Assembly (NCBI GenBank): GCA_030068145.1
Contig: JAPJBO010000013.1
Coordinates: 248,001-312,000, forward strand
Source of the DNA: Diplonema papillatum
Lineage: Eukaryota > Euglenozoa > Diplonemea > Diplonemida > Diplonemidae
DNA length: 64,000 nt
Reading direction: 5' to 3'
Shown: in pieces, positions 19,842-39,265 of the stretch
How positions within the stretch are numbered: the first letter of the stretch is position 1
Layout of the letters: each line of letters starts with the position of its first letter
Translations under genes and position numbers: made by a program
The notes under the pieces: model-generated
What the model saw: only the letters and a program-made list of their open reading frames with translations
Databases searched by the model: none
What the model was told of the DNA's origin: nothing

Positions 19842-20591
19842 GTTGGGGTTCGAGCCGGAGAATCCGAGGGACGGATATGCATGAAGCGGTATTGACCGCC
19901 ACTTCTTTGTGTGTTCCCACCGTCTAGTCACTTATTCTGGACCTGTGGTGGACCAACCGACCCCACATTGCACCGATGCGCCTGGTTTTAGTGCTGCCAA
20001 CAAAACTAAGCAGCGTAGAAGAGGCGCAAACCAGCCTGCCCATGGGCGCACCAACAAGGTTGCAAGACCGGGCGACCAATGCAGCACCTCCATCTTCTCC
20101 TGTGCTGTGCTATCCGTTTGTGTTGCTTCTTGAGATGCTCGCCGATCAGTAGGTGCAGTCGGATGGAGGGATCTGGACTGTGCGGCGCGCACCCTGTACC
20201 TTGTGTGAGAGGACAGGGTACGCGTTGCCATTGCCGAGATCGATAGTGGTAGCTAATTCGGAGGTTGCCGACTGACCAAAGAAGCGTGGCCAGCAGAGCC
20301 AGAGTGAACCGGGTCCCTTCGTCCAGGGGTTCATAGACTCACACAACAAGCGCACTCTTGCTCTCAATGGGGGTTGGTTTGTTTGCCCTGGATGGTCGGT
20401 CTTCTTCGCCTGAACGACATGCAAGCGATGCTTTACCCGTGGCTATTCGCGCAATGGAGATGGAAGTACGACGGTAGTAGCGGAGCAAGCACAGGGGTAT
20501 CGAACCACACACAGTACTCATCAGGTCGTCGAACGCATTAGCGGGCTGGGTTCGCCCATGCCCATCAGCAGTTGAGTGTCGCTTGAAAATC
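19842..20591. other. No gene seen
   Basis: 3' flank of the UBC12-like gene and anonymous sequence. Only short ORFs. Confidence 0.4.
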
Positions 20592-20795
20592 TAGTAACGG
20601 CGAGTGAACAGGGCAGAGCCCAAGCCTGAACCGGTGTTCTACGGATATCCGGAATGTGGCGCAAGCTGCTTGGGGACACAACTGGCGTCGAGGTAAGTCT
20701 CCTGGAATGGGAGGGTGAGAGTCCCGTATTTCCTTGACGAGCCATGTTGGTTAACTCCTTGCTAGCACGAGTCGCTCAGTTTGGGAATGCTGGAG
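20592..20795 (+). pseudogene. LSU rRNA fragment, D1 region (plus strand)
   Basis: Starts inside the LSU 5' region (CTAGTAACGGCGAGTGAACA, GGGCAGAGCCCAAGCCTGAA) and continues through GGGGACACAACTGG, GGAGGGTGAGAGTCCCGTA and CGAGTCGCTCAGTTTGGGAATGC, all in rRNA order. It overlaps the 9632-9750 fragment at its 5' end and the 16216-16380 fragment at its 3' end. It is then joined directly to a scrap of the 9309-9475 exon (20796-20865). Confidence 0.87.
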
Positions 20796-20870
20796 TTGAA
20801 TCGCAAGGTTTGATGAAATTGGATGGTGTTTGGTCAATGGCTTTTTCGGTGGATCTTCATTCACCGAGAA
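20796..20870 (+). pseudogene. Scrap of the 9309-9475 exon and its following intron
   Basis: CTGGAGTTGAATCGCAAG, then GTTTGATG and GGATGGTGTTYGGTCAATGG match 9459-9520. This places an exon-intron boundary copy immediately after an rRNA fragment. Confidence 0.7.
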
Positions 20871-21424
20871 AGCCGCCCGGTACTGCACCCTGAACCCCCA
20901 CCCCGAAGAAGACTTGATGCTAACATCTAACATGCCCCAGCTCCTGAGAGGCTGGGCTCCACCGTGTAGAAACAAACCGAGATCCTCCCCCTGTATACCG
21001 TGGTGTCGGTCGCATGAGTCTCTCTTGGCCGCGTGCGAGAGTGAACGAGTACGCAAAGCTGTGAGTAGATAATAAAGAACGAGTAAATGACAAAGCACAG
21101 AGATTGCACGTGCTAACTTACCGACGGAGATCGCCCGCAATCCTTCTTACCTACCCTGTACGACCCACATTTTGGCTTAAAGGGTCGAAACGCAGTTTCG
21201 TGCCAGGACACGGTGCGGTGTTGGACACATACCATTTCAAGCACGTCCTTGCATCCCCCCCACCCGTATGTTTCACCTATCCAAACCAGCCTGGGGTCGC
21301 GCACTGTTTATTCTTTTTCTTTTAGCTGCGCACTCTTTTCTCAGAGCCATCCCGGCGCGCGCGCACTTGTCCTTCTCGCTCGTTTCTTGGCGGCCCATCC
21401 TCTGCCCCCCTCGTCTCTTCCTAG

Positions 21425-21611
21425 GACCACCACCGTTCCTCGGATACCGGGGCCTGGGGTCCAGGTCCCGTCGGCAAGCCATTTGCGGCAGATCCAATTG
21501 CCGCCCGAACTGCGGTTGGAGACGAGCAGTCGGAGTTCTCATCCTTTTGTCTGGGGGTCGCAAAGACGACCTAGCTGGCCTTTTGCAGAAACGTACCATC
21601 TTGCCAACGAG
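21425..21611 (+). CDS. Candidate coding exon, family unknown
   Basis: Lies between a strong polypyrimidine-TAG acceptor (21399-21424) and a donor GTAGAA at 21612. One phase is open throughout (one base plus 62 codons) and reads a Pro/Ser-rich start and then SSHPFVWGSQRRPSWPF and AETYHLANE. Two other phases are partly open, so the call is weak. No domain recognised. Confidence 0.3.
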
Positions 21612-22496
21612 GTAGAATTCCAAACCTGCGCTAAGCAGGGCGAAGAATCGTACACCGCGAGAGTAGAAGAAAGAAGAAGGAAACCTAGACTTTTCTTTGA
21701 CCGTACTACCTGCACTATAATTCTGGACATGATTTCGGGTCCTACTAGGGGACGAGCGGGTGAGTCTCCTCACATTGTACTTGGCTTAAAAAGGAACCAA
21801 GTCGCCTGTGTTGTGTCCGCGGATTTAAGGACTGGACATTGCGAAACCCGGAGCAAAGGGTCCATGTCGTTGGCAGCTAGGACACCTCCCCCGGCGGAGC
21901 CTCAACCGAGGGCCCTTTTTAAAAAGGTTTCCACGCCACGTTGTCTGCAACGAAAGCAACAACGAGAAGTGTAATACGTTTCCCTTGGTTGGGCCTTCAT
22001 TCCCTTTTGGTTTTTGTTTTGAATAGGGTACCTGCTGTAATAAGAAATACTCGAGGCGGTTTGCGAATGATCACATCAGCAAAGCGTTCGACAGAAAATG
22101 CCCACCTGTGGCTGCATTTTTCCTCCCTTCTAAGCACCGGCGCGGTACGCACCAGGCGCCCTCGGGTATTTTCTTTTTTCTGGAAGTATGCTGCAGGGAA
22201 TAGTTGGCGCGATTTCTAGAGTTCGCGGGTCCAACGTACAAAATGTACAGACGAACCGACTCTTCTCTTTTATGCGAACGAGCGAAAAAAGAGTTGAAAA
22301 CACCCCTTTTTGCTGTCTCAAGAGCTGCGACTTAACTATTCTGCAAAACAAAGCAAAACTATGCATTCCTTTTCTCATTTTTTCCTTTTTCACGTTTCCT
22401 TTTTTTTTCTCTTCTTTTCCTTTCGTGGCTGCTCTGTTCCTGGCCCGTGGTATGCCCTGAGGATAAGTGTGGCTTTCTCTCTTGCTCTTTTGCGAA
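21612..22496. other. No gene seen
   Basis: Mixed short ORFs and a T-rich tract at about 22370-22430. Confidence 0.4.
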
Positions 22497-22680
22497 TAGG
22501 TGAACTGGTAATAGGTGATTGAAAACGGGTGCACTGGTGACAGGTGCGGTGGTGGCAGGTGCGTTGGTAGGAGGTGAATTGGTAGTGGGTGTATGGGAAA
22601 CGGGTGCATTGGTGACCGGTGCGGTGGTAGGTGCAATGGTCGTTAGGCGCATTGGTCGCAGGTGCATCTCGCGAACTCTT
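22497..22680 (-). repeat. About 15-bp minisatellite (GGTGC.NTGGT)
   Basis: Ten to twelve degenerate units built on GGTG(C/A)NNTGGTNNN. Read on the minus strand it gives a Thr-Asn-Ala-Pro-Val-type repeat that looks mucin-like, in open frames of about 175 residues. The repeat alone explains the open frames, so I do not call a gene. Confidence 0.7.
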
Positions 22681-22764
22681 CGGAGCTGTAAGGGCGAAAA
22701 GGCAGGATGGCACGTGCTTGCTTGCCCCGGTGCGCGTGCACTTAGCGTCACCGTAAATGGGGCG

Positions 22765-22850
22765 CCTAGACCCGGACAAGCCACCGGCATAAAGGTCATG
22801 AAGGCAGGACGGCACACTGCCGGTTGGCCAACAAAAACAAGCTGGTACAC
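22765..22850 (+). repeat. Dispersed repeat family R7, copy 1
   Basis: CCCGGACAAGCCACCGG, AAGGCAGGACGGCACACTGCC, GGTTGGCCAACAAAAA. Copies lie at 24305-24410 (just before the Penelope-like element) and, diverged, at 34055-34215, 35070-35150, 35260-35345 and 35535-35625. Confidence 0.8.
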
Positions 22851-23735
22851 GGCCAGCTGATTTTTTGCCGCATGGTTTCGCAACACAGCTCGTTGACATG
22901 GAATCCAACCTGAAGGAGATCATGCAACGTTTTGCGATTCAAGTATTCGGATGTAGTCGCAGAGAATTCTTCAGGAGAATACAACGCATTATCGCATGTT
23001 GGTGGTGGGATGGTAGTGCGCCTGATACCAGCCGGCAGCAAAATAAAGAAGACTTTAAGTTCGTACTGAATGCGAATGACAGAGAACTAAATAGTCTTTT
23101 ATTTTCGATTAGTCAACCTCGGCGACCGCGCTGGAAACGTCATTGAAGAAGAACTCTCACGTACACTACGTACAGAGAAAAGTTTTACGTCCAGGAAGAA
23201 AGACTCGCCAAAAGATAGTATGAATATGTTATGTCTTGAAACACAGGGAGCTGCGCAGGGCTTGCGCCATTACTGCCGTGTGAGACGAAGAGTTGACCGC
23301 GACAATAAACGGGTACTCTTCAAGACTGATTTACCACGTATTTTAGAACAACCCTCAGAAGACTTACCGAGCTAGCGGTGGTATTTGGCCACCTTTAGCT
23401 AAAATGCTGGTCGGGTGGCCGGGGGTGGGCAAAAGCCCTAACCAATCCAGAAGCTTAGGACAGGCTCGACGCTCGACAGACATCCTGTCCTGAGGGCCAC
23501 CGTGTGTAAGCCAGACGGAAAACTCTCAAATGCGAAGAGCTCAGTTGCAAAAAATATCACACAAGCTTCAAATGCACCCTCGAAGGGCCTCGAGACCGCT
23601 AAGGAGGGGGCCGAACTTTTATGCTTGGATTTCGACCAAATAAATAGGGAAACGTTGAGAGCCCGGAGTTTAGGGGTTAAATGGATGAACCAGGGAAGGA
23701 ACCAATCTGCACATAACAATGTCATGTACGTTCAG
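22851..23735. other. No confident gene
   Basis: AT-balanced anonymous sequence. A 266-residue frame at 23502-24302 has no recognisable domain and changes composition midway, so it is not called. Confidence 0.35.
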
Positions 23736-23853
23736 GATGATCGTGAACAAAGATATGCTGAAACAAGGAAAGATGGCAGCGGAAGCCGCACCAGTCCTCT
23801 CCCAGATAGCACTGGGCGAGCATTGCATGGCGGGATTGCCGCGGCTGTTTTGA
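23736..23853 (+). CDS. Candidate terminal exon, family unknown
   Basis: After the acceptor TTCAG at 23731-23735, one phase reads MIVNKDMLKQGKMAAEAAP, then VLSQIALGEHCMAGLPRLF and a stop. The segment is compact, amphipathic and protein-like. It would need phase 2 from an upstream exon. This is a guess from composition and the splice site only. Confidence 0.25.
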
Positions 23854-24304
23854 AATACGGTGACCACATCAGCAACGCCGGTGGCCCGTCGTTTTGGCGC
23901 GGCTGTGATGCAAAACGGAGCCAGTCGCCCAGCCAGCTGCCCAGCCGCCCAGCCAGCCGGCCAGGACAAGCTGATGGCAGGGAAAGGCCGAGGCGAGCCA
24001 TTCAGTGCATCAGCCCAAGAAACGCAATGTCGCTTGCACATTGGTCTCTTGCCAAGATGAACATCACAGGTGGTCAGAAAGTACTGGAGGTGTTGGCAAG
24101 GCCAGTGTCTTTACCACGCCCGAAATTGGCCCAAAGGGCCCCGTGCAGCGCGAACCACAACCGCAGTTGGGCTTGCGCGCAGAAAACGGGAGTTTGGCTC
24201 AAGAAAACGGCAGCGTTGTGCACCATCATTATAACAATAAAAAGTGACACCCCCTACTCCATACAACTTCTATCAAACTTCTATATTCAGCATTGTGGGT
24301 AACA

Positions 24305-24410
24305 CCACTAGACCCGGACAAGCCACCGGTAGAAAGGTAGAAGGATCGAAAGGCACCGTGGGGGTCATGAAGGCAGGACGGCACACTGCCGGTTGGCCAA
24401 CAAAAAAAAC
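24305..24410 (+). repeat. Dispersed repeat family R7, copy 2
   Basis: As 22765-22850 but with an extra internal block (GTAGAAAGG..GGATCGAAAGGCACCG). Its end marks the probable 5' limit of the Penelope-like element. Confidence 0.75.
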
Positions 24411-24456
24411 CACGTTTCGCACCAGCTACATACAAAGACGCGGCAACCCCTGCTGA

Positions 24457-26000
24457 TTGGTACGTTCCTACAGCCAACCCACTGTCACCCGCCGAATCTT
24501 CACACTCCACGACGCGTTGCACCGCATACGGCCCACCAAAGACGCACATGCACAGTTTGACGACAACACCGACGGACCTCTATATACCGCGAAGACCGTC
24601 GCCACGGTTCGCACCAACAACATACAGAGACGCGACCCCGCCTGATTGGTACGTCCCTGCAGCCAACCCACTGTTACCCGTCGAATCTTCATACTCCACG
24701 ACGCGTCGCACCGAATCCGAACCACCAAAGTCGCACATGCACATTTTACCGACAACACCGACGAACCTCTATATACCGCGAAGACCGTTGCCACGGTTCG
24801 CACCAACAACATACAAAGACGCAACAACCTCCGACAATGGGTACGTCCCTATAGCCAGCCCACTGCCGCCCGCCGAATCTTCATACTCCCCGACGCGTCG
24901 CACCTCGTCCGGCCCACCAAAGTCGCACATGTACAGTTTACCGACAACACCGACGGACCTCCATATACTGCGAAGACCGTCGCCACGGTTCGCACCAGCA
25001 ACATACAAAGACGCGACAACCCCCGCCGATTGGGACGTCCCTACAGCCAACCCACTGTCACCCACCGAATCTTCATACTCCCCGACGCGTCACACCGCGT
25101 CCGGCCCACCAAAGCCGCACATTCACAGGTTACCGACAACACCGACGAACCTCTATATGCCGCGAAGACCGCCGCCACGGTTCGCACCAACAACAGCAAC
25201 AACCCCCGACGATGGGTACGTCCCTACAGCCCACCCACTGCCACCCGCCGAATCTTCATACTCCCCGACGCGTCGCACCTCGGCCGGCCCACCAAAGTCG
25301 CACATGTACAAATTACCGACAACACCGACGGACCTCTATATACCGCGAAGACCGTCGCCACATTGCGCACCAGCAGCATTCAAAGACGCGACAACCTCCG
25401 CCGATTGGTACGTCCCTACAGCCAACCCACTGTCACCCGCCGAATCTCCATACTACCCGACGCGTCGCACCGCGTCCGGCCCACCAAAGTCGCACATCAC
25501 AGTTTACCGACAACACCGACGGACCTCTATATACCGCGAAGACCGTCGCCACGGTTCGCACCAGCAGCATACAACGACGCGACAACCCCAGCCGATTGGT
25601 ACGCCCCTACAGCCAACCCACTGACACACGCCGAATCTTCATCCTCACCGACGCGTCGCACCTCGTCCGGCCCACCAAAGTCGCACTTGCACAGTTTACC
25701 TACGACACCGACGGACCTCTTTATACCACGAAGACCGTCGCCACGGTTCGCACCAGCAACATACAAAGACGCGACAACCCCCACCGATTGGTACGTCCCT
25801 ACAGCCAACCCACGGTCACCCTCCGAATCATCATACTCTCCGGCACGGCGCACCACGTACAGTTCTCCAAAGTCACACATGCACAGTTTGCCAACAACAC
25901 CGACGGACCTCTATATACCGCGAAGACCATCGCCACGGCTCGCACCACCAACAAGCAGAGACACCGCAACCCACGCCGACTGGTACGTCCCGTCGGCCAA
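24457..26000 (+). repeat. 192-bp tandem repeat forming the 5' half of ORF1
   Basis: The phrase ACGGACCTCTATATACCGCG and its variants start at 24572, 24761, 24953, 25145, 25328, 25519, 25711 and 25903. Spacings are 189, 192, 192, 183, 191, 192 and 192. All three forward frames are open over about 1 kb. In one frame each unit reads a Pro/Thr-rich module (PTTPTDLYIPRRPSPRFAP, then YSPTRRT.SGPPKSH). Confidence 0.92.
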
Positions 26001-28146
26001 CCCACCGCTACCCTCCTTTCCGGCAGACTCTTTCTTTTCACCAAGTCCGCGAAGTTCGAACTACAAACCGATCATGCACAGATTGTCACCAGTACGAACT
26101 CCGGAGTTCTTCATCCCTCGACCATACCGACAATCGAAGCAACCCACACCTCAAACACCGCCAACAAATCGTTCGACACCGACCTTGTACAGCGACGTCG
26201 CAGCCCGTTCAGACAGATACGTCCCCACGATCAACCCAACACCGCCATCTTTTTCGAACGAAGCCTCCGGTTCCCCGACGGCTCACCAGTGGTCACCACA
26301 ACAGACGCTAAACCAACCACGCCGCACTACAGCTACAACTACTCGCACTTACATCACAGGCCAGATTGACCACAGGCAGACCAAATTGCAACCCCACACA
26401 CCCACCCTTCCATCCCCATCAGACAACCGGCGTACACCGAAGCAGCATGTTAGTTTTCCATACGTCTTCCCACGCGAACTTTATCACACACCACCCGTAC
26501 AAAGACTCGAACCGGCATCCACAACGCTTCGACAAGACACACGGCCGCCAGCTGGCAACAGACCGCTGCAACACACACCAACCCTATCAGACAAACACCA
26601 CACACCGAAAGGGCATAGATCTCCAGACGTTGACCCAGGCGTACCACACCAAACAGCTTCTTCAGCAAGACGCGATCCTACACACTCACAGCATCGCCAG
26701 TCCCGACTACCGCCGACGTCGAGCACCAAACCGCAGCCACACATACCAACGCTGCCGACCCCATCTGACATCCGCTGCACACCGAAGGAGACTACTAGAT
26801 CTGCAGGCGTCGTCCCACTCGAATTGTATCACCCTTCTTCCGCAGCAAGACTACAGTCGACATACACGCCGTATTGTCAAATCCCACTGCCGCCGACGCC
26901 GCACACCGGACGGCAGCCACTCACACCAACTTTACCATCGCCTTCAGATGACCGCTGCACACCTAAAGAGCCTCCCAGTCCTTACGTCTTCCCACGCGAA
27001 CTTTATCGTACACCGCCAGCAGCAGTACACGAGCCAACTTACGCACCATATCACCAGGCCCCACCACCGACGATGCTGAGCACGCAGACACCCAAACAAA
27101 CCAGAAACCCCACACAATACCGTAACACTACACCCTCACCCATCATACACGAAATAGACAGCACCACACCGACCTCCAGCACCATCTCAGAAGCACAATC
27201 CAACGAATTACACGACCACGCACAAACAAAACCACTTGCCCCCAACCCCACGAACAATACGACACACGCTGCCGGTACGCCCAACACACCTACATTCTCA
27301 CGCCGCATGTCAAACCACACTACACACGACGCATCCCCTTTACCCACTTATCAGGAAGCGATGACACATAGAACGCATCAGACTACACCCCCAAACTCGA
27401 CGCCGTCCCACCAAACACACCCGCTAGCAAAACCCACACCGCCATCCGCCGAACTTAGCTCACACCAAAGCGACGCACCCAAACACAAACCGACTAACAA
27501 CACGATGCCCGGGCGCGGCACATACAAAGATAGTATACAAAGTACAACCGAACACCCAACACCTTCACCACCGCCTATCCTCACACCCTTCATACGCGAT
27601 AGCCACCTTCATAAAATCACGCACCCCCGAACACGGGAGACCTACACCCATGCCACCACAGACACGAACCTACAACAACCCATACACGCCCCATCCCAAC
27701 GACAAGCAACCTACGGCAACTGGCACTACCGACCTACGACTAATGCAACGGAACACACACAAAGTACACCAGAAGACATCCCCGCAAATTCCACCAACTC
27801 GCCTTGCGGAAAGGATTTCCAGAAGCACACAATTGTCCAGAACGCGATACATTCACAGGACGCACGAAGACCGGAGTTTCACAAGAACCCTTTCCTGACA
27901 TGCTTTCGAACGAAAGCCAAATTCAACTACGGAAAACAGTTCTGGAGTGAATACGAAGCACGACGAAAAGACGCCGAGAAGACGTTTCTCGCCAAGTATC
28001 ATCGCAAACTGGCTAAAGGATGGAAACATTGCGACACAGACAAAGCGAGTTATATACGCACTAGTAGACGAACGCGGCAACCCTCGCTACGTCGGCCAGA
28101 CCAAACACACCGCGCGCGAGCGCTTAGATTCACATTGGTACGCTAG
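24646..28146 (+). CDS. ORF1 of the Penelope-like element, repetitive Pro/Thr/His-rich protein
   Basis: 1166 codons without a stop. The N-terminal third is the 192-bp repeat, read in one phase and then another. Residues from about 580 to 810 (26380-27075) form a second repeat of about 48 residues, four copies, with TPTLPSPSD.R.TPKE and FPREL(Y)HTPP. The rest is rich in Pro, Thr, His and Asn, basic, and without a recognisable fold, so it is probably disordered. The last 200 bp overlap ORF2 in another frame. The start codon is uncertain because the frame is open upstream to about 24457. Role unknown; by analogy with ORF1 products of other retroelements it may bind RNA, but nothing in the sequence proves that. 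Confidence 0.6.
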   Translation: MVRPCSQPTVTRRIFILHDASHRIRTTKVAHAHFTDNTDEPLYTAKTVATVRTNNIQRRNNLRQWVRPYSQPTAARRIFILPDASHLVRPTKVAHVQFTDNTDGPPYTAKTVATVRTSNIQRRDNPRRLGRPYSQPTVTHRIFILPDASHRVRPTKAAHSQVTDNTDEPLYAAKTAATVRTNNSNNPRRWVRPYSPPTATRRIFILPDASHLGRPTKVAHVQITDNTDGPLYTAKTVATLRTSSIQRRDNLRRLVRPYSQPTVTRRISILPDASHRVRPTKVAHHSLPTTPTDLYIPRRPSPRFAPAAYNDATTPADWYAPTANPLTHAESSSSPTRRTSSGPPKSHLHSLPTTPTDLFIPRRPSPRFAPATYKDATTPTDWYVPTANPRSPSESSYSPARRTTYSSPKSHMHSLPTTPTDLYIPRRPSPRLAPPTSRDTATHADWYVPSANPPLPSFPADSFFSPSPRSSNYKPIMHRLSPVRTPEFFIPRPYRQSKQPTPQTPPTNRSTPTLYSDVAARSDRYVPTINPTPPSFSNEASGSPTAHQWSPQQTLNQPRRTTATTTRTYITGQIDHRQTKLQPHTPTLPSPSDNRRTPKQHVSFPYVFPRELYHTPPVQRLEPASTTLRQDTRPPAGNRPLQHTPTLSDKHHTPKGHRSPDVDPGVPHQTASSARRDPTHSQHRQSRLPPTSSTKPQPHIPTLPTPSDIRCTPKETTRSAGVVPLELYHPSSAARLQSTYTPYCQIPLPPTPHTGRQPLTPTLPSPSDDRCTPKEPPSPYVFPRELYRTPPAAVHEPTYAPYHQAPPPTMLSTQTPKQTRNPTQYRNTTPSPIIHEIDSTTPTSSTISEAQSNELHDHAQTKPLAPNPTNNTTHAAGTPNTPTFSRRMSNHTTHDASPLPTYQEAMTHRTHQTTPPNSTPSHQTHPLAKPTPPSAELSSHQSDAPKHKPTNNTMPGRGTYKDSIQSTTEHPTPSPPPILTPFIRDSHLHKITHPRTRETYTHATTDTNLQQPIHAPSQRQATYGNWHYRPTTNATEHTQSTPEDIPANSTNSPCGKDFQKHTIVQNAIHSQDARRPEFHKNPFLTCFRTKAKFNYGKQFWSEYEARRKDAEKTFLAKYHRKLAKGWKHCDTDKASYIRTSRRTRQPSLRRPDQTHRARALRFTLVR

Positions 28147-31100
28147 ACGAAACGGCACACCTGTAGCGTCCGCGATGTTGAAAAGAAACTACCCGCTATT
28201 CACCGTCCCCCTAATTAAGATCAAAATTGACGACAACGCCTCGACGGAAGACTTCAGACGTCAAGCCCTCCCGCGAGAAAACTTCTGGATTTCGCACCTC
28301 AACACCGTCTACAACGCACAACGGTACATGAGAAGCAACACAGGACAGCACCGCAGTCGCAGCAAGAAGTCAAACCAAGAACGTTTCCGACCTCCGAGTG
28401 CACCGTCCAGCACCGTTTGGGCCTGGATAGCAGACGGTCAGCTACTCATCAACCAGACCACCGAAGGCCGTGCTTACTCCATCCGCAAACAACTCCACCA
28501 TCTCCTCGCGCTCAACGACAAAGACCTCGACAAATACGATTTCAGCTCGATGGGACGACCGAGGGCACGACGGCTGCTCAACTGGATAGCATCGAACGCA
28601 CCAACTAGTAACCTACCAAAGAAAGTCATCACGCTGGAAACCCATTTGAAGGATAGGCTCAGCGAGGTAACTTTGTCGAAAGTGGAGAAGAATGACGGCG
28701 CACCAGCACGCTTGATCATCACACATGGAAGTGATCACATTCACCGACTCCACCTCAACGACCTACTCCAACAACCACAAATACGCGAAGCATGCCCTAA
28801 CCGACGCACTCTAGACCGCACCAAGACGACGTTCCGACTAAACCCACCCCTGTTCCTACGTGTCCAGAACGTCACAGAAGTCAGTAAAAGCCTGCCAGAC
28901 CTCGCACTCGGTCCACCCGATCAATGCGCGTGCCGACACTACCGTGGCGACAAGAACATTCAAGGACACGCGATCGGACACCTTTTCGATATAACACAAG
29001 ACAAAGGCCTCACTGAGTGTATCAAGCGCGGACGAAAATACCGCTGCTACCAGGACCATCACGCACTCGAAGAGGGACTACACACTTCCATAGACGAATA
29101 CGTAGAAAAATACTACCCGTCGGAACCAAACGCTTCCGCTTTTGGAACAGCGTTGAAGGACGAACTTTCGGGACGCCTCGCCACCTTACCACCATCTGAC
29201 GAAGAAACGTTGAGCCGTATCGCATCGCAAGAACTCAAGAGACTCAAACAAGACCTGGTGATACTGCCCGTAGACAAAACCACACACGACTTCGGTTTTT
29301 GTTGCAAGGCGTACTACACAAACACACTACGGGAGCAAATACAAACCAGTGCCACATACAAGAAGCAAAATATTACGAAGACCCAGCTACAACAACAGCA
29401 CAAGCAGCAACTCGAGCCTTTCAAACTACAAGCACAAGGCGGACTACCATACCTCTACGGCAGTCTTAAATTACATAAAGCCGAACCGAGTTTCCGGTGG
29501 ATTGCGGGCGTAGCAACAGACATTGTAAGGAAAGACAACAAGACAACCGCGCGCAAGCAGAAACCGAAAGCAACTACTACGAACGCCCACCTAGAGCTGT
29601 CCGGACTGCTGAAGGCTATAATGCGGACGATAAAGGAAAAGGACCGACGGAACCAACGACAGACGGGAATAAAGAAGGTCTTCTTCACCGAGAGCCCCGA
29701 CGACATAGCCCTCAACGTCAAACAGCGTCAAACCCATCTGAGATACAAAACACCCACCGACCACGACTTCACGACAATGTACACCAACCTACCGCACGCG
29801 GATCTCAAGCGCAGGGTTGGTTCAGCTGTCGACGAAGCTTATGAATACGAGGAGAAACACGGCCACAACCACCTCACCCGAGGAGCTAAGCAACAGGGCA
29901 AAAAGACTTTTAGTTTCGGCAAAGGGGCGAACAACACCAGTCGAAATTATACAAAAGAAGAACTCAAAGCCCTACTCAACTTTGTCATCGACAATGCCTA
30001 CATCGAGCAGGACGAAACCATACTACGCCAGACGGAAGGCATACCTATGGGAGGCAATGCAAGTTCGGACCTGGCGAACTTGTACTGCTACAGTGTGGAG
30101 TCCGAGTACATAGACGGACTGCTAGCAGATGGCAAAGTCGACGAAGCCAAAGCCCACGTCGACACATGGCGATTCATAGATGACTTCCTCCAATGGGACT
30201 GCAAACCACCACCTCAATCACTCTATCGTATGGAGTACAAAGAGACGACAGCTGCACGCGACGACATCGTCTTCCTTGGAATACGTATACGCATTGAACG
30301 ACCCGCAACACCACACCCACCACACATAAGACTAAGCGTGCACCCCAAAACCTTCGGCACCCGGTTTACACACCACCAGACCACCGCCCCCAAATCACAG
30401 GCCAGCGGCATTTTCAAAGGCTCACTGATAAGGGCAATCCGACAAACCAACCACTGGCAGGACCTTCGCGTCGAGATCCAGCGCAACGTATACGCGATGC
30501 TCGAACGGGGGCACCACCCCAGAGTTCTCTACCCCCCGTGGCAAGCTTGGCTGACGGAGGAGTTCCGAACCCTACCACGACTACACAGCCAGTTAAAACC
30601 GTTCTTAGGGTACAGCATTGCGCGTTTCAAGAGCGGCAAACCGCGCATGGAAGAGCCAGAATACGCCGGAAGACACCAACCCCTTAACTTCAAACCAGCC
30701 GAACTGCCTGTAACACCGGACGATCGCGACTCAATGACAGACAGCCACTCCTCAACAACCCACGAACACGAGGAAAGACCAACAACCCTCCTTTCACAAC
30801 CACAACCACAGTTCACCTTGAAACACCGAGTAGCCAACCTAGCAGCAACCATCACTTTAGCGGCAGCAATCGCAGCCGCCGGAGCGAGGACCATGTCGAA
30901 ACTCACGAGATACACCACCACAAACTCCTGTTTTCTGCAAGCGGCCCTCAACTTGATCGCCGCCACAGACATGGCACAACAAGTAGTCACATACCACGAC
31001 TGCCCAACACACACGAAAGGCGAATGCACGGCAGCTGTCCACGCTTGGGTGACAGGAAAACGGACGCAAGCAACACTGCTGCACGTTTTCGCCAACATCG

Positions 31101-32290
31101 ACGGACCGTTCGGCAACGGGCAGCAATGCGACCTCGGGGAAGTGCTAAGGGCCATCACCACAGCACTTCTTGACGAAAACCTCGCACACCAAGCTTGCCA
31201 GCAACATCGCCCTGATGCTTTCAACGGTCTACGACATACAACGACGACGACAACTACTTGTAAAAACTGCAACCACAACAAAACCAACCCCCCCGAAGAC
31301 CACGACATAACCTTTCTACCTCCAATCGACAACTCGATCCAACGGTGCTTGAACAACCACATCAAACCTGGCCCCGCCGCCGACTACAGATGCGAAGTCT
31401 GCAAAATCACCGATACCACCCTCACAACAACAACATTTCACCGCATTAATTCAATGCTGTTGATTCAGCTTCAAAGAGCCCGTAGACACGAAGCGACGAA
31501 CCGTACCGCTATACGCGCCGACCACTCTATCACGCTGCCAGGACAAAACACACCACTCGTTCTCAAAGCCATAGCAGTACACTCCGGCCACAACAACGCA
31601 GGGCACTACGTCATCCACGCCCTCAACGATATCGACGCTAACCAACGATGGACGCGCTTCGACGGACTACAGACGCACTCCACTTCGACACAAAACTACG
31701 CCGACAACGAAGTTTACCTCTGCGTCTACCAGCTCAAAGACTACCCACAGACGGATGTCCCGCCACCCATAGACCACAACCACTATGAACCCCCAAAGCC
31801 TGCCACGTCCAGAACCACAACACAAGAGCCGGACTCGACGCAAAGTATACTTAGAGCCATGCGCGGAGACGAGACATCTACCGACACACCCACACAACGA
31901 CACGACAGCACACCCCCCACACAAACACCCACAACACCAGGCACGTCACAGACCTCCAGTACCACCGCGGAAACAGAGACCAGCAGTGAAGACGACTTAC
32001 GATGTCCCCACTGCCACACACGCACAACAACAACCGGCCTCAAACTGAAGGGAAAACAAGGATTACGGACGCACCTACGTTACTGCAAGAAGAAACCAAC
32101 CAGAACTAAGTCACAAGCAGAAACAACGCTGCGAAGCACCACCCAGAAACGAGAGAGATGTCCCTACTGCCACAGCGACGGACGAACCGTGGGGAAACCA
32201 CTCTTCAAAAGTCTACGACACCATAAGCCCTGGTGCAAAAAGAAGCACTGTAAACAACGCACAGCAACGACGACTCCATCAGACGAATAA
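27947..32290 (+). CDS. ORF2: GIY-YIG endonuclease - reverse transcriptase - USP-like peptidase - zinc fingers
   Basis: 1447 residues. Residues 34-120 are a GIY-YIG nuclease (VIYAL at 35, RYVGQT at 47-52, Arg57/59, and Glu111 in ENFWI). Residues about 450-800 are a Penelope/telomerase-type RT: LPYLYGSLKLHK, motif A DFTTMYTNLPH with Asp607, motif B GIPMGGNASSDL from 698, and motif C RFIDDF with Asp745-746. A hydrophobic Ala-rich segment lies at about 963-981. Residues about 985-1255 match ubiquitin-specific proteases (family C19): Cys box NSCFLQA with Cys995, a zinc ribbon C1105-x2-C1108 and C1149-x2-C1152, INSMLLIQLQR, and His box HSGHNNAGHYV with His1220, then W.RFDG with Asp1239. C2HC fingers start at 1353 (CPHC) and 1405 (CPYC). 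The RT would copy the element RNA at a nick made by GIY-YIG. The peptidase may strip ubiquitin from element or host proteins (inference). Confidence 0.9.
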   Translation: MNTKHDEKTPRRRFSPSIIANWLKDGNIATQTKRVIYALVDERGNPRYVGQTKHTARERLDSHWYARRNGTPVASAMLKRNYPLFTVPLIKIKIDDNASTEDFRRQALPRENFWISHLNTVYNAQRYMRSNTGQHRSRSKKSNQERFRPPSAPSSTVWAWIADGQLLINQTTEGRAYSIRKQLHHLLALNDKDLDKYDFSSMGRPRARRLLNWIASNAPTSNLPKKVITLETHLKDRLSEVTLSKVEKNDGAPARLIITHGSDHIHRLHLNDLLQQPQIREACPNRRTLDRTKTTFRLNPPLFLRVQNVTEVSKSLPDLALGPPDQCACRHYRGDKNIQGHAIGHLFDITQDKGLTECIKRGRKYRCYQDHHALEEGLHTSIDEYVEKYYPSEPNASAFGTALKDELSGRLATLPPSDEETLSRIASQELKRLKQDLVILPVDKTTHDFGFCCKAYYTNTLREQIQTSATYKKQNITKTQLQQQHKQQLEPFKLQAQGGLPYLYGSLKLHKAEPSFRWIAGVATDIVRKDNKTTARKQKPKATTTNAHLELSGLLKAIMRTIKEKDRRNQRQTGIKKVFFTESPDDIALNVKQRQTHLRYKTPTDHDFTTMYTNLPHADLKRRVGSAVDEAYEYEEKHGHNHLTRGAKQQGKKTFSFGKGANNTSRNYTKEELKALLNFVIDNAYIEQDETILRQTEGIPMGGNASSDLANLYCYSVESEYIDGLLADGKVDEAKAHVDTWRFIDDFLQWDCKPPPQSLYRMEYKETTAARDDIVFLGIRIRIERPATPHPPHIRLSVHPKTFGTRFTHHQTTAPKSQASGIFKGSLIRAIRQTNHWQDLRVEIQRNVYAMLERGHHPRVLYPPWQAWLTEEFRTLPRLHSQLKPFLGYSIARFKSGKPRMEEPEYAGRHQPLNFKPAELPVTPDDRDSMTDSHSSTTHEHEERPTTLLSQPQPQFTLKHRVANLAATITLAAAIAAAGARTMSKLTRYTTTNSCFLQAALNLIAATDMAQQVVTYHDCPTHTKGECTAAVHAWVTGKRTQATLLHVFANIDGPFGNGQQCDLGEVLRAITTALLDENLAHQACQQHRPDAFNGLRHTTTTTTTCKNCNHNKTNPPEDHDITFLPPIDNSIQRCLNNHIKPGPAADYRCEVCKITDTTLTTTTFHRINSMLLIQLQRARRHEATNRTAIRADHSITLPGQNTPLVLKAIAVHSGHNNAGHYVIHALNDIDANQRWTRFDGLQTHSTSTQNYADNEVYLCVYQLKDYPQTDVPPPIDHNHYEPPKPATSRTTTQEPDSTQSILRAMRGDETSTDTPTQRHDSTPPTQTPTTPGTSQTSSTTAETETSSEDDLRCPHCHTRTTTTGLKLKGKQGLRTHLRYCKKKPTRTKSQAETTLRSTTQKRERCPYCHSDGRTVGKPLFKSLRHHKPWCKKKHCKQRTATTTPSDE

Positions 32291-32548
32291 CCTCACTAAC
32301 CACGGGTACCCAGTGTGCCCAGAGTGCCTTAACTGTGGCGAGCAACGAACAGTTTTACCCTGCAAATCTACCCAAAAAAAACCTTATCTTACGACGGAAG
32401 CAACCCGCACCACATGAAGCACCGCAAGTGCCGCGAAATCCAAGCACCACACTGCGAGAAAATACATATAAACGCGGACAACAGACCGGTACGGGCTACA
32501 AGGCAACCCCTGCTCAACTTGTAGAACGTGGGGGGCCCAAGACTACAC

Positions 32549-32745
32549 TCCACGAAGGAAAGTACTTGGTGTCGGTCACAAACAGTCCCGGACATGGCTA
32601 GCCATAACCCATAACGAAAGCGTGCACTAAATATACAACCCGTAACCACATAGCCCTTTCTTGCTCTAAGAGAACCCATTCATGAACGGTCACACGGAGA
32701 CCCTAAAACCCCGGAATTTCAAGCGAACTTTAACTCTAAAAAACA
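32549..32745 (+). repeat. Dispersed repeat family R6, copy 2
   Basis: Nearly identical to 12074-12272. It directly follows the Penelope-like element and precedes the exon-copy array. Confidence 0.85.
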
Positions 32746-32754
32746 AGCTACCTG

Positions 32755-34055
32755 TAGAAGGTACCGCCGCGCGGGACCAAGAGGTGTGTGGAGGGGTATA
32801 GGCAGGACGGCACGTGCATGCTGCCTGCATGCTGCCTGCATGCTGCCCCGGTACGCGTGCACTCTAACGTCACCGTACGTGGGGGCGCCGCCGGCCGGAG
32901 AGAGGGATGGCTCGGAGAGAAGGCAGGTGGGCGGCGGCGCCGCCGCCGCCGCACCGCTGGTCGCGGCGCCTGGGGGCGGTGCGATACCAGCGCCGCGCGC
33001 GCCCGTCGTCGTCGCGAGCCTCGGCGGCCTGAAGACCCGGCCCCTAAATTGAGCCCGGCACCAGCCGGTGCGCGCCGGCGCTACTGCGCCCGCGGAGCGC
33101 CGTCGAGGCGGGGCCGGGCTTTGGTCCCGTCCTGTGCGTCCTCGTCCCTGATTCTAAAATTTCCAGGGGATTCGTTTCCGTTGCAGATTTAGACCGACGG
33201 TCCAAATCTGCAAAGCTGACTTGGCCGGGGAAAAAAAAAAAAAATGTTCAAAAAACGGTGTTCAAAGTAAATATAGGCGGGGCGTGTGGTGGTTTAGCAG
33301 TGTGCTGAAGGTGCTGGAAGGCTGCTGAGCCTCCGCTGCTGAGACCCAGCCGCTGCCGTTCAATTGGGTTCAGCTTCGGGTCGGCAGCCACTGTGCTTCA
33401 TTGCCGGGCCAAGGTCCTGTTTGACAGTTGAGTATCCCACACGAGCTAAGAGTTGCCCACACATGAGAAAGGGGGGGCGGAGTTATTGTTGCCCAAATTT
33501 TCCGTCGCGCCTTCGGCGCGATGTTGCTAAAAATAACGCTAAAAATGTTGTTGTAAGCACGGCGGTGCACACCAAAACCGTGGACCTATTATCATAGGAA
33601 AATAGGTCCCCAGGTCACCCCCCTTCAGCTGCCTGACGAGACTGTCTGTTTACGATTTTGACTGTTTTTGGAGCGCGTCCCCATATGGCACCCCCCCACA
33701 GGGAACCCAGAAGCATTCGGAAAACGCCGAAAAGCTTGATCCAGGCTGGTGTACGTTGAAAAAACGCCCGCAAAATGTGTCGCCAAACTGACGGGGTGAC
33801 CATAATTGACCCATATGAAGACCCCTCTTTTGCCGAACGAAGTTGTGGAGATGTCTAAATCGGCGAAAACGGCACCGAAACACCGCCCAAAACCACCCCA
33901 TAGAAACGGTTTAAATCTGCAAATCCCGGAAGCCTTCAAACTAATACCCTGAAAATATCATTCCAAAAAAAAACCGTAAAGAAAGATAGGGGTGTGCCCA
34001 GAATAGCGAGGTAGCTCGCGAGAGAGCTCAAGCTGAGAGTTTCAATTTCAAGCCT
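32755..34055 (+). pseudogene. Broken copy 1 of the first exon of the 35.7-kb gene, with flanks
   Basis: Begins with an R7-like edge, a TGCATGCTGCC triplet repeat (32815-32850) and CCCCGGTACGCGTG. From about 32870 to 33165 it repeats the exon (GGCGCCGCCGGCCGGAGAG, then GCGCCCGCGGAGCGCCGTCG), with a large internal part missing. The last 0.9 kb starts with an inverted repeat at 33183-33211 and then AT-richer DNA ending in CCCAGAATAGCG.GGTAG, shared with the next unit. No intact frame. Confidence 0.75.
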
Positions 34056-35070
34056 AGACTCGGACAAGCTACCGGTAGAAAGGTACCGTGCGGGACATCA
34101 AGGCAGGACGGCACACTGTCATTTGGTTAACAAAAACGAGCTACCGGTAGAAAGGTACCGTGCGGGACATCAAGGCAGGACGACACGCTGTCATAACAAA
34201 AACGAGCTACCGGTAGAAAGCCGTGCGGGTCCCAAGGGAGGTGGATGGGCGGGGTATAGGCGGCACGTGTATGCTGCCTGCATGCTGCCTGCATGCTGCC
34301 TGCATGCTGCCCCGGTACGCGTGTACTCTAACGTCACCGTACGTAAGCCGGTTCATCCCTATCTCCTGGAACTGCATCGAATTGCCTGCCGCTGTTCATT
34401 GTAGCGAATCGAGGTCCACCACAGTCTATCAGGTCTATCCCTATCCCCTGGAGCTGCATAGAATTGCCTGGAGCTGCATTCTTCTGTCTATCACAGTCTA
34501 TCAGGAGGGGATGGACCGGCTTACGTACGTGGGGGCCGCCGGCCGGAGAGAGGGATGGCTCAGAGAGCTTCTGTGGGGCACCAGCCGGTACGCGCCGGCG
34601 CCGCTGCGCCCGCGGAGCGCCGTCGAGGCGGGGCCGCCCGTCGAGTGGGCTCTGGTCCTGTCCTGCGCGTCCTCGTCCCTGATTCTAAAATCAGGGAATA
34701 GCTTCTATATCCACATTTGGACTGTCAGTCCAAATGTGGAAAGGCCGGCGGGGAAAAAGGAGAAAAAATGGCGCTAAACAACTACCCAGGCCCCGGTAGA
34801 GGTGGCCAGTGTGGGATCCGAGGGCCTCTCAGGTCCCAGCATTGTCGTGAAGATACGTCGCGTCGCGCTGTGTTGAGCCCGTTCCTGAGTGAGGACGCAA
34901 AAAGCCGTTGTCGGTCCAAATTTGGAAAATGGGCCGGAGACCAAGCTAATGCCCTGTCTAAAATCCCATTCAAAAAAACGGTGAGAAATGTTGGATAGGG
35001 ATGTACCCAGAATAGCGGGGTAGTAGCTCGCGGGAGAGCTCAATCTGAGAATATCAATTTCAAACCTCTA
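34056..35070 (+). pseudogene. Broken copy 2 of the same exon, with flanks
   Basis: Same order as copy 1: R7-like repeats, the TGCATGCTGCC repeat (34270-34310), an R3 insert (34350-34520), GGCCGCCGGCCGGAGAGAGG, and an exon piece at 34580-34690 (TACGCGCCGGCGCCGCTGCG, CGTCGAGTGGGC). This is followed by a near-perfect 29-bp palindrome at 34711-34739 and the shared tail CCCAGAATAGCGGGGTAG. Shorter than copy 1 because most of the 33.2-33.95 kb stretch is absent. Confidence 0.75.
34711..34739. repeat. 29-bp palindrome
   Basis: Fourteen bases (CCACATTTGGACTG) are followed by one base and their near-complete complement. The equivalent place in copy 1 (33183-33211) holds a weaker version, so the hairpin is a conserved part of the unit. 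Confidence 0.8.
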
Positions 35071-35680
35071 GACTCGGACAAGCTACCGGTAGAAAGGGTA
35101 CCGTGCGGGACATCAAGGCAGGACGGCACACAATCAGTTGGTTAGCAAAAAACGATACTGAAATGTCCTGGATAGGGGGACCCTATGGCTTTCCCGAGAA
35201 TAGCGGGGTAGCTTGCGAGAGGACTCAGTTTGAGAGTTTTAAATCCAAACCTCTGAAATTCCGGACAAGCTGCCGTAGAAGGTACCGTGCGGACATCAAG
35301 ACAGGATGTGTCAGTTGGTTAACAAAAAAACAGGCTAACGGTAGGAAGGTACTGCCGTGCGGGTCACAAGGGAAGTGGGTGGGGGGGGTGAAGGCAGGAC
35401 GGCACACAATCATTTGGTTGGCAAGAAACGATACCGAAATGTCCTGGATAGGGGAACCCTATGGCCTTCCCGAGAATAGCGGGGTAGCTTGCGAGAGGAC
35501 TCAGTTTGAGAGTTTTAAATCCAAACCTCTGAAATTCCGGACAAGCTACCGATAGAAGGTACCGTGCGGATCATCAAGACAGGACGTGTCAGTTGGTTAA
35601 CAAAAAAACAGGCTACCGGTAGGAAGGTACCGCCGTGCGGGTCACAAGGGAAGTGGGTGGGGGGGGGTAAAGGCAGGACG
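35071..35680 (+). repeat. Tandem duplication, unit about 279 bp, of R7-type sequence
   Basis: ATGTCCTGGATAGGGG, CCCGAGAATAGCGGGGTAGC, GAGAGGACTCAGTTTGAGAG and AAATTCCGGACAAGCT recur at 279-bp spacing (35164 and 35441). The edges are R7 elements. Confidence 0.85.
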
Positions 35681-35684
35681 GCAC

Positions 35685-36506
35685 GTGCATGCTGCCTGCA
35701 TGCTGCCCCGGTACGCGTGTACTCTAACGTCACCGTACGTGGGGGCGCCGCCGGCCGGAGAGAGGGATGGCTCGGAGAGAAGGCAGGCGGGCGGCGGCGC
35801 CGCCGCCGCACCGCTGGTCGCGGCGCCTGGGGGCGGCGTGATACCAGCGCCGCGCGTGCCCGTCGTCGTCGCGAGCTTCGGCGGCCCGCAGACCCGGCCC
35901 CGAAACTACGCCAGGTCCCCCCCGGCGGCAGCGCGTATCCACGCGACCGGCTTGCACACACCCCCCAACCGCTTCCACGGCGTACCAACCCGGGCTTCAG
36001 CCTACCCGTGCCTGCCGCTTAATCGCCGGTACGCGGCTGCCCCGTGTGCAGACCGCCGCCCCGGTGTGCCGCCGGCGGGATCCCCGTTGCCGGTGGAGCC
36101 GTGCGCCCCGTTGCTGGCCGACCGGCCTTCAACCCGGTACCAGCCGTACGCGCCGACGCCGCTGCGCCCGCGGAGTGTCGTCGATGCGGGAACGCCCGTC
36201 GAGCGGGCCTTGGTCCTGTCCGTGGCGTTTGCCTCTCCCTTGGCCCTGCACCACCTCCTCCTCGTCGGCCGGTCGCTGAGAGCGCGGCTGCGGGGAGCGC
36301 TCGGCGTGTCCGCGCTGCGGGCGCTGCTCGACGCGCTCCAAGCGGAGTACGGGTGCTCGCCGTTCTTCATCTGCGGCGCGCCGGACGACCCGACGCGCAA
36401 GCTCTGCACGCTTACCGGTGCGTGGGATCCCGACCGCCGACCGTACACCGACCCGCCTCCTTCGACGCTTCTCTTGCCTTTTTCCGGAGAGGCCATGTCA
36501 ACGGTG
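35685..36506 (+). CDS. First recognised exon of an unidentified gene (gene B)
   Basis: Open frame of about 274 codons with high GC and host-like codon bias. The N-terminal 90 residues are Ala/Gly/Pro/Arg-rich. From about residue 145 it looks globular and helical: ERALVLSVAFASPLALHHLL, LRGALGVSALRALLDALQAE, YGCSPFFICGAPDDPTRKLC, then a Pro-rich tail. A donor GTGTGA follows ACG at 36506 in phase 0, which joins in phase to the exon at 36931. The 5' limit is unclear because the region upstream is the exon-copy array; the real start may be nearer 35740. Two broken copies lie at 32.9-33.2 and 34.6-34.7 kb. Function not recognised. Confidence 0.5.
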
Positions 36507-36930
36507 TGATCACTGCTCCCTCAGTTTGAGGTTCGAATGCTTCGAACCTGTACCGACAGTCTGCATTTCCCGTGAACAAAAGACAGGGGATAAGGGTAGA
36601 CCCGCTTAGAGGGACGGGTCGAAATAATAACACCGTGTTGCTATTCGATTTTGAATACTAAGAAATATTTCAGTACGCATGTGTGTCGACAGTAGCAGGA
36701 TCCGATACTGGTAGCGTTTTTTGAATGCTGGACGCGTGTCAAACATCTGTCATTCAAATACGGACAGCAGAAAAAGCAGGAAGGCGGAGGGAGTTGTACA
36801 TTCTCAGATCAGATCCGAGTGTGGGCCTCCTGAACCTTACCGTGCTCTTGGGGCCTCATGTAGAGAGTTTGCAGACAATGTCTCAAGTCAAAAGGCAAGC
36901 TGCTGTTTGAACCACCAACAATCCAAACAG
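36507..36930. other. Probable intron of gene B
   Basis: AT-richer sequence with a GGTTCGAATGCTTCGAACC palindrome at 36528-36548. Ends in CCAAACAG. Confidence 0.4.
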
Positions 36931-37095
36931 CTCTGGAACAGCGTCTTGCCGAGGGCGACGGCGGTCCCTCCGTACAGCTGGGGCACCATCAACAACGCCG
37001 ACGAGGCGCGCCTCTTTCTCTCGCGAGCGATGATGTTTCACAAGGATGACATGGACGACGACCTGTCGCCGATCCAACGCACAGAGGCAAGGCAG
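36931..37095 (+). CDS. Gene B, second recognised exon
   Basis: 55 codons in phase 0 between acceptor CCAAACAG and donor GTACGA. Reads LWNSVLPRATAVPPYSWGTI, then NNADEARLFLSRAMMFHK and DDMDDDLSPIQRTEARQ. Sharp GC and codon shift at both ends. In-phase joining to 36506 upstream and 41867 downstream is inferred from phase and composition. No family recognised. Confidence 0.5.
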
Positions 37096-37865
37096 GTACG
37101 ACGCAATCCTTTTGTGGCCGGGAAACTGTAGTTGGTGTTAGAACCGGAGTTGACTGTGGATCTGGGGGTTGGCGGTGAGGCAATCTTCACTCTTGGGGGA
37201 ATTCGAAACCTCAGTTGTTCAGTGCGCGCGGCCCGTGCGCAACGAATTGAGTTAGGCTGCCTTGGCCTTCTCCCACAGGGGGTCCTTCAACGCTGACATC
37301 GGGAGCGAAGCTGAGCTACCACGGAAGGAATCACACGTAACACGTGAACGTATTGCCAGACGCATGATGAAAAGCTGTCATTTGTTGTGTTTTGAAAGAT
37401 GTGCGCCCGAGGGGTGCTGTGCTCGAAACCGTCAGGGCAAACAAACCGGGCACACTTGACATTTCTAGCTAACAATCTTGCGGGTTGTCCTTCAATGTAT
37501 TGTGCATCGTAGGCAGCGGGTTTGGTGGTCGATCAGAATTCCTTACCTGAAAATGACACGGAGAAGTGCCTGCCTTTTTCTACACGGGCATCCCGAGATG
37601 CACATGCATTCGACAGAGAGCCCCCGGGCTATATTTGAAGGGATTTCAATACGGAGGCCCCGCCAACAAATACATCACCTCCACAGCTCTGGGGGCTGCT
37701 TGGCACTATAGTCTCGTCGCTGACATCGTCGTATAAATTTCACGCACTGTACATTGAGGCACGTTGGCGGGAGCTATTGACGCAGGTGCACCTTCTAATG
37801 TTCGAACAAGTCACCAGTCCGGCATCAGCAGACGCCCGCTAGCCGCTGTGCCGGATGACGCGTGA
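37096..37865. other. Probable intron of gene B; nothing recognised
   Basis: Only short random ORFs. Confidence 0.35.
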
Positions 37866-37869
37866 CGTA

Positions 37870-38290
37870 CTATTCGTGTCGAATTTTCATCAGTGCGCGT
37901 GGACTAGCCACGACGACTGGAAATACGGTTTCGCTGGCGTTGTGTGAGTTATCATCAGCCGCGACGACGACGGAAAGCAACTGACTTGTGATCATTGCAA
38001 CAGAATCAGTACGCGTGAACTAGCCACGACGACTGCAAATACGCTTTCGCTGGCGTTGTCATCAGCCGCGACGACGATGGAAAGCAACTAGATTCTCGTG
38101 CCGATTTCGTGGCCTAGCCCACGACAACGACTGGAAGCACGCTGCGCTGGCGTTGTGCGAGCTATCATTAGTAGACGTACCAGCCGCGACGAAACACCTG
38201 ACGTGTGATCAGTGCAACTACCGTGCCGAATTGCATCAGTAAACGCGGACTAGCCGCGACAACGACGGGAAGCACCTGTCATGTGATGAA
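37870..38290 (+). repeat. Degenerate tandem repeat, unit about 100-130 bp
   Basis: Four diverged units share GACTAGCC.CGACGACTGGAA, GCTGGCGTTGT, ATCATCAGCCGCGACGACGA and TGTGATCA.TGCAAC. Confidence 0.75.
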
Positions 38291-39072: not shown

Positions 39073-39265
39073 ACAGAAGGACTGTACTTGGTGTCTGTCA
39101 CAAACAGTCCCAGACATGGCTAGCCATTCCTAATAATGAACGCTCGAATGAAAGGGTCCACCAAAGAAACAATAGCCCGTACTTGCTACAGAGCCCATTT
39201 ACAGAGGTCAGTCGGAGACGCTAAAACCGCGGAAACTCAAGCAAACTTTCACTAAAGAAAGGTTG
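39073..39265 (+). repeat. Dispersed repeat family R6, diverged copy
   Basis: ACTTGGTGTCTGTCACAAAC to AACTTTCACTAAAGAAAG; about 80 percent similar by eye to 12074-12272. Confidence 0.75.

Follow-up and report, generated by a model that had tools for sequence, protein, structure and literature searches.

A USP-type peptidase domain at the C-terminus of a multicopy Penelope-like retroelement of Diplonema papillatum

In this study, we analysed a stretch of 64,000 nucleotides, referred to below as the window, from the genome of Diplonema papillatum, a marine flagellate which belongs to the diplonemids and not to the algae (assembly GCA_030068145.1, contig JAPJBO010000013.1, positions 248,001 to 312,000 of the forward strand). 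A Penelope-like element (PLE) occupies positions 24410..32743 of the plus strand, on which all the features given below are located. At the C-terminal side of its reverse transcriptase (RT) this multicopy element, whose GIY-YIG nuclease is N-terminal, encodes a domain of the USP type (peptidase family C19; residues 985-1265 of protein P0001, 30899..31741). The domain is recognised by profile and fold, is conserved and under purifying selection, recurs in other PLEs and is akin to the USP of a SLACS-type long interspersed nuclear element (LINE) of the same host. Judging from sequence, we find it probable that the domain is an active hydrolase of ubiquitin or of a ubiquitin-like modifier, which would protect the element complex for integration. 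The intact-looking domain, the selection acting on it and its exchange between element types suggest that such elements may manipulate the protein-tagging system of the host.

An initial annotation of the window had proposed the fusion of a C19 peptidase to a PLE with the nuclease placed first, and profile, fold, fusion-bearing relatives and conserved ligands all support it. The Pfam profile UCH (PF00443) matched residues 991-1261 with an E-value of 6.5e-11 and 42.8 bits (cut-off 23.9) over profile positions 6-254 of 254, and the Foldseek structure matches showed a USP fold, with Ubp8 of the deubiquitinase module of SAGA in the first place; Ubp8 was also the top sequence match in PDB (E 4e-4). 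Structures of USP18-ISG15 and USP36-Fubi were found among the fold matches as well.

To compare the active site, we aligned 58 mobile USPs (56 from PLEs and two from the LINE) with eight host USPs, omitting P0035 as a duplicate and any row that had less than 250 aa of the domain. All landmarks of the initial annotation were located as claimed. The catalytic Cys995 (30929..30931) and His1220 (31604..31606) are present in 58/58 mobile USPs, and at the position of the third triad residue, Asp1239 (31661..31663), 54/58 have D or N, three have Ser and one has a gap. Both cysteines of the first zinc-ribbon pair, C1105 and C1108 (31259..31270), are invariant in the 58 sequences, and in the second pair (31391..31402) C1149 is present in 58/58 and C1152 in 56/58. 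A complete set of four zinc cysteines, a common though not universal trait of USPs, occurs in 56/58 mobile USPs vs 4/8 host USPs. P0001 also has Q1060, D1062 and E1065, the latter two found in 58/58 and 56/58 mobile USPs, respectively. The triad and zinc ligands are retained in 7/7 Diplonema mobile USPs. The earlier statement that all catalytic residues are retained thus stands for the Cys-His-Asp triad and the zinc ligands, but not for two other positions. Asn at position -5 from the catalytic Cys, which forms the oxyanion hole in USP7 and is a common rather than a defining feature of USPs, is present in 53/58 mobile and 8/8 host USPs and is replaced in the window clade, by T in the window USP, by S in one LINE USP and by K in the other; the acid following the triad Asp is Gly (G1240) in all three. 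Both sites are canonical in two other Diplonema PLE families. By its sequence, the window-clade USP is slightly divergent, with triad and zinc ligands kept.

Selection was calculated segment by segment between genomic copies as w, by the NG86 method, L010 being the window copy. Between L010 and L026, w was 0.082 for the USP (confidence interval 0.028-0.162), 0.036 for the RT, 0.105 for the nuclease and 0.32 (0.11-0.87) for the linker 881-984; the last segment gave 1.82 with a wide interval (0.31-3.03). It is the pair at 95% identity, with a synonymous divergence (dS) of 0.13 in the USP, that carries the selection argument. Between L010 and L033 the USP value was 0.135 (0.078-0.201), that of the RT 0.046 and those of the linkers 0.24 and 0.38, and between L026 and L033 the USP gave 0.145, all to be read with the dS of 0.94-2.0 by segment, near saturation, that separates the copies at 76% identity from the window family. 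In a second family, the pair L018 and L042, with USPs 61% identical, gave 0.158 (0.091-0.246) for the USP and 0.079 for the RT, again near saturation (dS 1.8 and 2.0). The segment 1266-1370 of this analysis takes in the first of the C-terminal zinc-finger-like motifs (from residue 1352). The USP is clearly under purifying selection, with a constraint weaker than that on the RT.

The remaining parts of the protein define the class of the element. The GIY-YIG endonuclease (EN) domain (residues 33-130, 28043..28336) gave in P0001 a match at residues 35-81 of 16.5 bits, under the Pfam cut-off of 22.6, and the same region exceeds this cut-off in the relatives P0005 (23.8) and P0006 (23.0), with which the key residues Y37, Y48, G50, R59 and H63 are invariant in the alignment. 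Between nuclease and RT lies a CxC motif (C327 and C329, 28925..28933), invariant in 11/11 PLE proteins, which we take to be the defining motif so named by Craig et al. 2021. The RT, for which we set the limits at residues 431-880 (29237..30586), has DF..MY from 607, GIPMGGN from 698 and RFIDD from 742; D607, D745, D746 and GIPMG, presumably the PLE motifs, are invariant in the 11 aligned proteins. Over 91% of residues 1-970, P0001 and P0005 share 36% identity. No hammerhead ribozyme was among the three Rfam matches in 20000-38000 (E up to 1); EN+ PLEs of this kind are not known to have a canonical one. By its PLE-type RT, the nuclease preceding it, the CxC motif and the lack of a hammerhead, the element is assigned to the N-terminal-GIY-YIG PLEs. 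Two CxxC...H...C zinc-finger-like motifs (32000..32287, from residues 1352 and 1404), seen in the translation and having no Pfam match, end the protein, and one comparable motif ends P0006 and P0012.

Limits of the element were obtained by blastn of window positions 20000-38000 against 20 other genomic copies, collected from the whole genome (271 Mb in 2,910 contigs). Positions 32742-32749 are the common 3' end in 17/20 of the fetched copies, the alignments of L031, L038 and L041 ending at 31928, 32641 and 32469, respectively. The alignable 5' limits vary among close copies (26027, 26488, 27496, 28303, 28700, 28812 and others), as expected from 5' truncation, and in some copies the limit is due instead to divergence, a tandem array or a contig end (L030). 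A common 3' end with unequal 5' limits is consistent with target-primed copying, in a comparison of the ends of the alignments. In the window, a 47-bp repeat of a type found in the flanks ends at 24409, directly before the element, which begins inside a tandem array with a repeat unit of about 192 bp (64 aa; 24410..26005; Tandem Repeats Finder period 192, 8.4 copies; repeat family D1) located in the N-terminal coding region. A P/T/S-rich N-terminal part of the polyprotein follows in an open frame of 1166 aa (24646..28146), different from the second frame, open from 27899 to 32290, which holds nuclease, RT and USP; the change of frame sits just upstream of the nuclease. As the frames are open, introns were left out of account.

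In the copies L025, L026, L033 and L035 the N-terminal part and EN-RT-USP form a single frame. L026 and L033 have one ATG-started frame (MS..HPLPP) of 2,661 and 2,662 aa, in which a P/T/S-rich first part of about 1,240 aa is followed by EN, RT and USP, and L035 starts in the same way, with a frame of 2,525 aa. The GTG at 27947, taken in the initial annotation for the start of the reading frame, was therefore wrong, since the frame of L026 and L033 runs through from the upstream ATG. The first residues of L026 and L033 have no match upstream of 24386, apart from matches of 22-37% identity in a repeat-rich stretch, so the ATG is missing from the window copy. Since it starts within the array and changes frame immediately ahead of the nuclease, this copy is probably defective, its USP frame being nonetheless intact. 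The first 1246 aa of L026, which correspond to this N-terminal part, are without any Pfam match. In the genome, 33 matches belong to the window family, the window copy among them; 12 of them, on 12 contigs and free of stops, cover residue 6 or earlier to 1447 at 95-100% identity, five more cover the same range at 76%, and the remainder are partial.

Two observations concern the surroundings of the element. A 68-bp piece of its 3' region (32554-32621) is repeated at 39076-39143, 6.5 kb downstream, with 85% identity, perhaps as the 3' end of another element. A weak match to eukaryotic large-subunit rRNA at 20617-20810 (28.8 bits, below the gathering score) agrees with the scattered 28S pieces reported for D. 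papillatum in the part of PMC10161547 consulted.

Recurrence was followed first with residues 1-970 of P0001 as a query, the USP being left out so that the search was not steered by it. By profile, USP sequence occurred in 13 of the 30 proteins found and a domain of at least 230 aa in eight. Leaving P0009-P0011 outside the comparison, these matches contained two further Diplonema PLE families. One is P0006/P0012, with P0014-P0016 as fragments of it at 96-99%; the other is P0008/P0013, which takes in P0005 (99.6%) and P0007 (95.8%). The annotated model P0005 is without a USP; P0013, near-identical to it over the 566 common residues, has one. P0006 was found at 14 full-length places of the D. 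papillatum genome at 100%, in an open frame of 1,562 aa that includes the USP. A second search with five PLE-USP proteins as queries, hence biased to the fusion, gave 332 proteins, of which 120 were listed, and 54 of these have a USP by profile. Both GIY-YIG and UCH are among the precomputed domains of 11 proteins, among the matches listed in both searches. Pooling 143 proteins (141 identifiers with L004 and L005), we counted 65 with RT and USP, 75 with RT alone and three with USP alone, the latter being the SLACS group; the count of 65 includes one protein twice, L004 and P0035 being identical, as well as partial USPs (P0007, P0009-P0011, P0023, P0100). Some of these proteins are unusual. The single chain of the environmental PLE protein P0020 has an RT, a USP and, at its C-terminus, a DnaJ domain (8.5e-20). 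The Diplonema proteins P0009, P0010 and P0011, annotated under the names UNC93-like, dynein intermediate chain or STIP1-like, hold PLE RT with partial USP sequence and are probably chimeric gene models.

In a scan of the D. papillatum genome PF00443 scored 149 places (935 candidates). The P0006/P0012-type USP span (profile 1 or 2 to 240, 774-801 bp) was found at 112 of them, 27 coinciding with P0006 matches and 85 assigned by span only; the other 37 have the appearance of host genes or fragments. In viral contigs, PLE alignment A2 retrieved 43 pattern matches, none of which was a relative. A bacterial genome collection contained nine PLE loci, on 3-9 kb contigs of metagenome-assembled genomes (MAGs) or symbiont assemblies, which are most readily explained by eukaryotic contamination; their frames were judged by eye and L004 and L005 were scanned with Pfam. 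The PLE frame stops soon after the RT in L001, L002, L003 and L007, is broken within the RT in L006, and little of it is left in L008 and L009. L004 has a USP by Pfam. L005 (233-4747, on a contig deposited as part of a Dojkabacteria MAG) has, at the usual place of the USP, a Peptidase_C48 (Ulp1) domain (3.3e-9), together with a PLE RT and a GIY-YIG-like match (16.7 bits, under the cut-off).

The closest relatives of the window USP are found in the SLACS-type LINE proteins P0002 (49% identity) and P0003 (46%). This LINE is a real element, since P0002 has RVT_1 (5.2e-20) and UCH (2.7e-7) in one protein and P0003 is multicopy, with 64 genome matches, 22 of them over the full 811 aa at 99-100% and two lying within 4,088-aa open frames; contig C6 matches at 100%. 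Nine of the 22 full-length P0003 matches begin no more than 2.1 kb from the start of a contig, which would fit a location of the LINE in arrays or at chromosome ends where the assembly breaks off. Both LINE proteins also share a segment (GWAALNWLA...) in the about 220 aa C-terminal to the USP, which is without a Pfam match up to an E-value of 0.1 and may be a further peptidase-like domain.

In the USP tree the window USP is sister to the LINE USPs with support of 100/100. Grouping of the five Diplonema PLE USPs without those of the LINE was rejected by the approximately unbiased (AU) test (p 0.0003), and the two results together show a transfer of USP sequence between a PLE and a SLACS-type LINE. 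In the same tree 50/51 environmental PLE USPs form one clade at 98/97, P0020 standing outside. With long branches and eight host USPs of one genome as the outgroup, a single origin is neither shown nor rejected, for the 25 mobile USPs of the smaller tree (AU p 0.353) or for the seven Diplonema ones (0.377). A quick RT tree, with SH-aLRT support only and with long branches for L005, P0020 and P0034, places the Diplonema PLEs and P0020 in one clade (94) and the environmental USP-bearing PLEs nested among USP-less ones.

In the mechanism that we propose, the USP would be an active hydrolase of ubiquitin or a ubiquitin-like modifier, held beside the element's own RT and nuclease, where it could remove ubiquitin either from the ribonucleoprotein of the element or from host proteins that assemble at the site of insertion. 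In this way the element complex might be spared ubiquitin-dependent turnover or restriction until target-primed integration has taken place. Deubiquitination of host or self proteins would be a plausible function, with the stabilisation of proteins as its putative purpose. Several points weigh against this proposal. Given the departures at -5 and after the triad, activity is less certain for the clade that unites the window USP with those of the LINE than it is for the remaining families. In the comparison of L033 with L036, both from the 74-76% group, w of the USP (0.27, 0.12-0.59) exceeded that of the RT (0.06). Many PLEs seem to do without a USP: it was not found by profile in 66 of the 120 proteins listed, and 32 of those exceed 850 aa, ranging from 858 to 986 with 31 between 915 and 986, about the length of EN and RT.

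Two other readings keep an active hydrolase and change its target, and we regard both as unlikely, to the same degree. In the first, the USP would act on chromatin, removing ubiquitin from histones at the nick and opening the target like the SAGA subunit Ubp8 does on H2B; Ubp8 as the best match in both sequence and structure searches and the neighbourhood of nuclease and C-terminal zinc-finger-like motifs agree with it. In the second, the substrate would be a ubiquitin-like modifier such as SUMO, in line with the SUMO-type protease at the USP place in L005, with the ISG15 and Fubi complexes among the fold matches and with USPL1, a SUMO-preferring USP (PMC8983731, in the part consulted); L005 is, however, one isolated example, with a very long branch in the RT tree, and no tested sequence feature discriminates between modifiers.

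That the USP cuts the polyprotein into N-terminal protein, EN-RT and USP, as the initial annotation had also suggested, appears improbable. The ATG-bearing copies do encode one long polyprotein, but no [LIVF]xGG site, the kind cut by USPs and viral ubiquitin-like proteases, was found in P0001, L026, L033, P0006 or P0012; Pfam likewise showed no ubiquitin-like domain, either in P0001 or in the first 1246 aa of L026, and the P0006 family keeps its USP despite the much shorter frame. A passenger or inactive domain, kept for folding or ubiquitin binding only, is still harder to accept: the non-canonical residues of the window clade would suit it, and the triad and ligands kept in all seven Diplonema mobile USPs, with purifying selection, argue against it. 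An artefact of chimeric assembly, nested insertion or contamination, to which the frame change of the window copy might point, is already contradicted by the 12 near-identical stop-free matches and by the same fusion in independent data sets, and we give it hardly any credence.

Returning to a USP that acts for the element, we tentatively extend the proposal, with less confidence than the proposal itself: deconjugation of ubiquitin or SUMO could be a recurrent need of PLEs with an N-terminal nuclease, which would have acquired deconjugases of unrelated kinds (a USP perhaps repeatedly, Ulp1 one or more times) at a single C-terminal position, the USP cassette passing between PLE and SLACS-type LINE in one genome and most scored Diplonema USP places apparently being owned by parasites and not by the cell. 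PLEs are a retrotransposon class related to telomerase. The USPs are deubiquitinases that have been studied in depth and for which activity probes and inhibitors exist, and the copies are numerous and near-identical in a protist that has a sequenced genome and is available in culture, so the question whether a retrotransposon must remove ubiquitin to integrate becomes directly testable. The swap of the USP cassette between PLE and LINE is a natural experiment.

Among the nearest known systems are the Naiad and Chlamys clades of N-terminal GIY-YIG (EN+) PLEs, reportedly described by Craig et al. 2021 (Mol Biol Evol), which share the N-terminal nuclease, the CxC motif and the PLE RT with the window element. 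Its nuclease is without the Cys residues of the CCHH motif, as in Chlamys, and the element differs in its C-terminal USP, P/T/S-rich N-terminal half and C-terminal zinc-finger-like motifs; a USP is not known from the description of either clade. The SLACS/CRE-type LINE of D. papillatum (P0002, P0003, P0004) has the closest USP but represents another retrotransposon class, the RT of P0002 and P0004 being RVT_1, missed by the PLE RT profile. The main text of the D. papillatum genome paper (PMC10161547), in the portions consulted, reports SLACS and other retroelements, and the words Penelope and ubiquitin are absent from that main text. No transposon words were found in PMC10318531. The literature was surveyed in part, including portions of PMC6431247, PMC10161547, PMC4640811 and PMC2836005, and a USP in a PLE or other retrotransposon was not found there, by which we do not claim its absence from print. 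The one mobile-element USP met in these portions is Trichomonas vaginalis XP_001314237.1, a single protein with transposase_11 and peptidase C19 named in the discussion of PMC2836005, like the window element in joining a mobile element to a USP and unlike it in having a DNA transposase. The NeSL and Utopia non-LTR retrotransposons, according to the sections of PMC4640811 seen, similarly combine a retrotransposon polyprotein with a ubiquitin-like deconjugase, but it is an N-terminal protease of the Ulp1 (C48) fold and the RT is that of a LINE. The corresponding sections of PMC2836005 describe Ginger1 with OTU or Ulp1, Mutator with Ulp1 and Helitrons with OTU; the domain of Ginger1, of deubiquitinase or desumoylase type, is C-terminal as in the window element, whereas all three are DNA transposons with other peptidase families. 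Ulp1 and OTU peptidases in mobile elements are thus already known.
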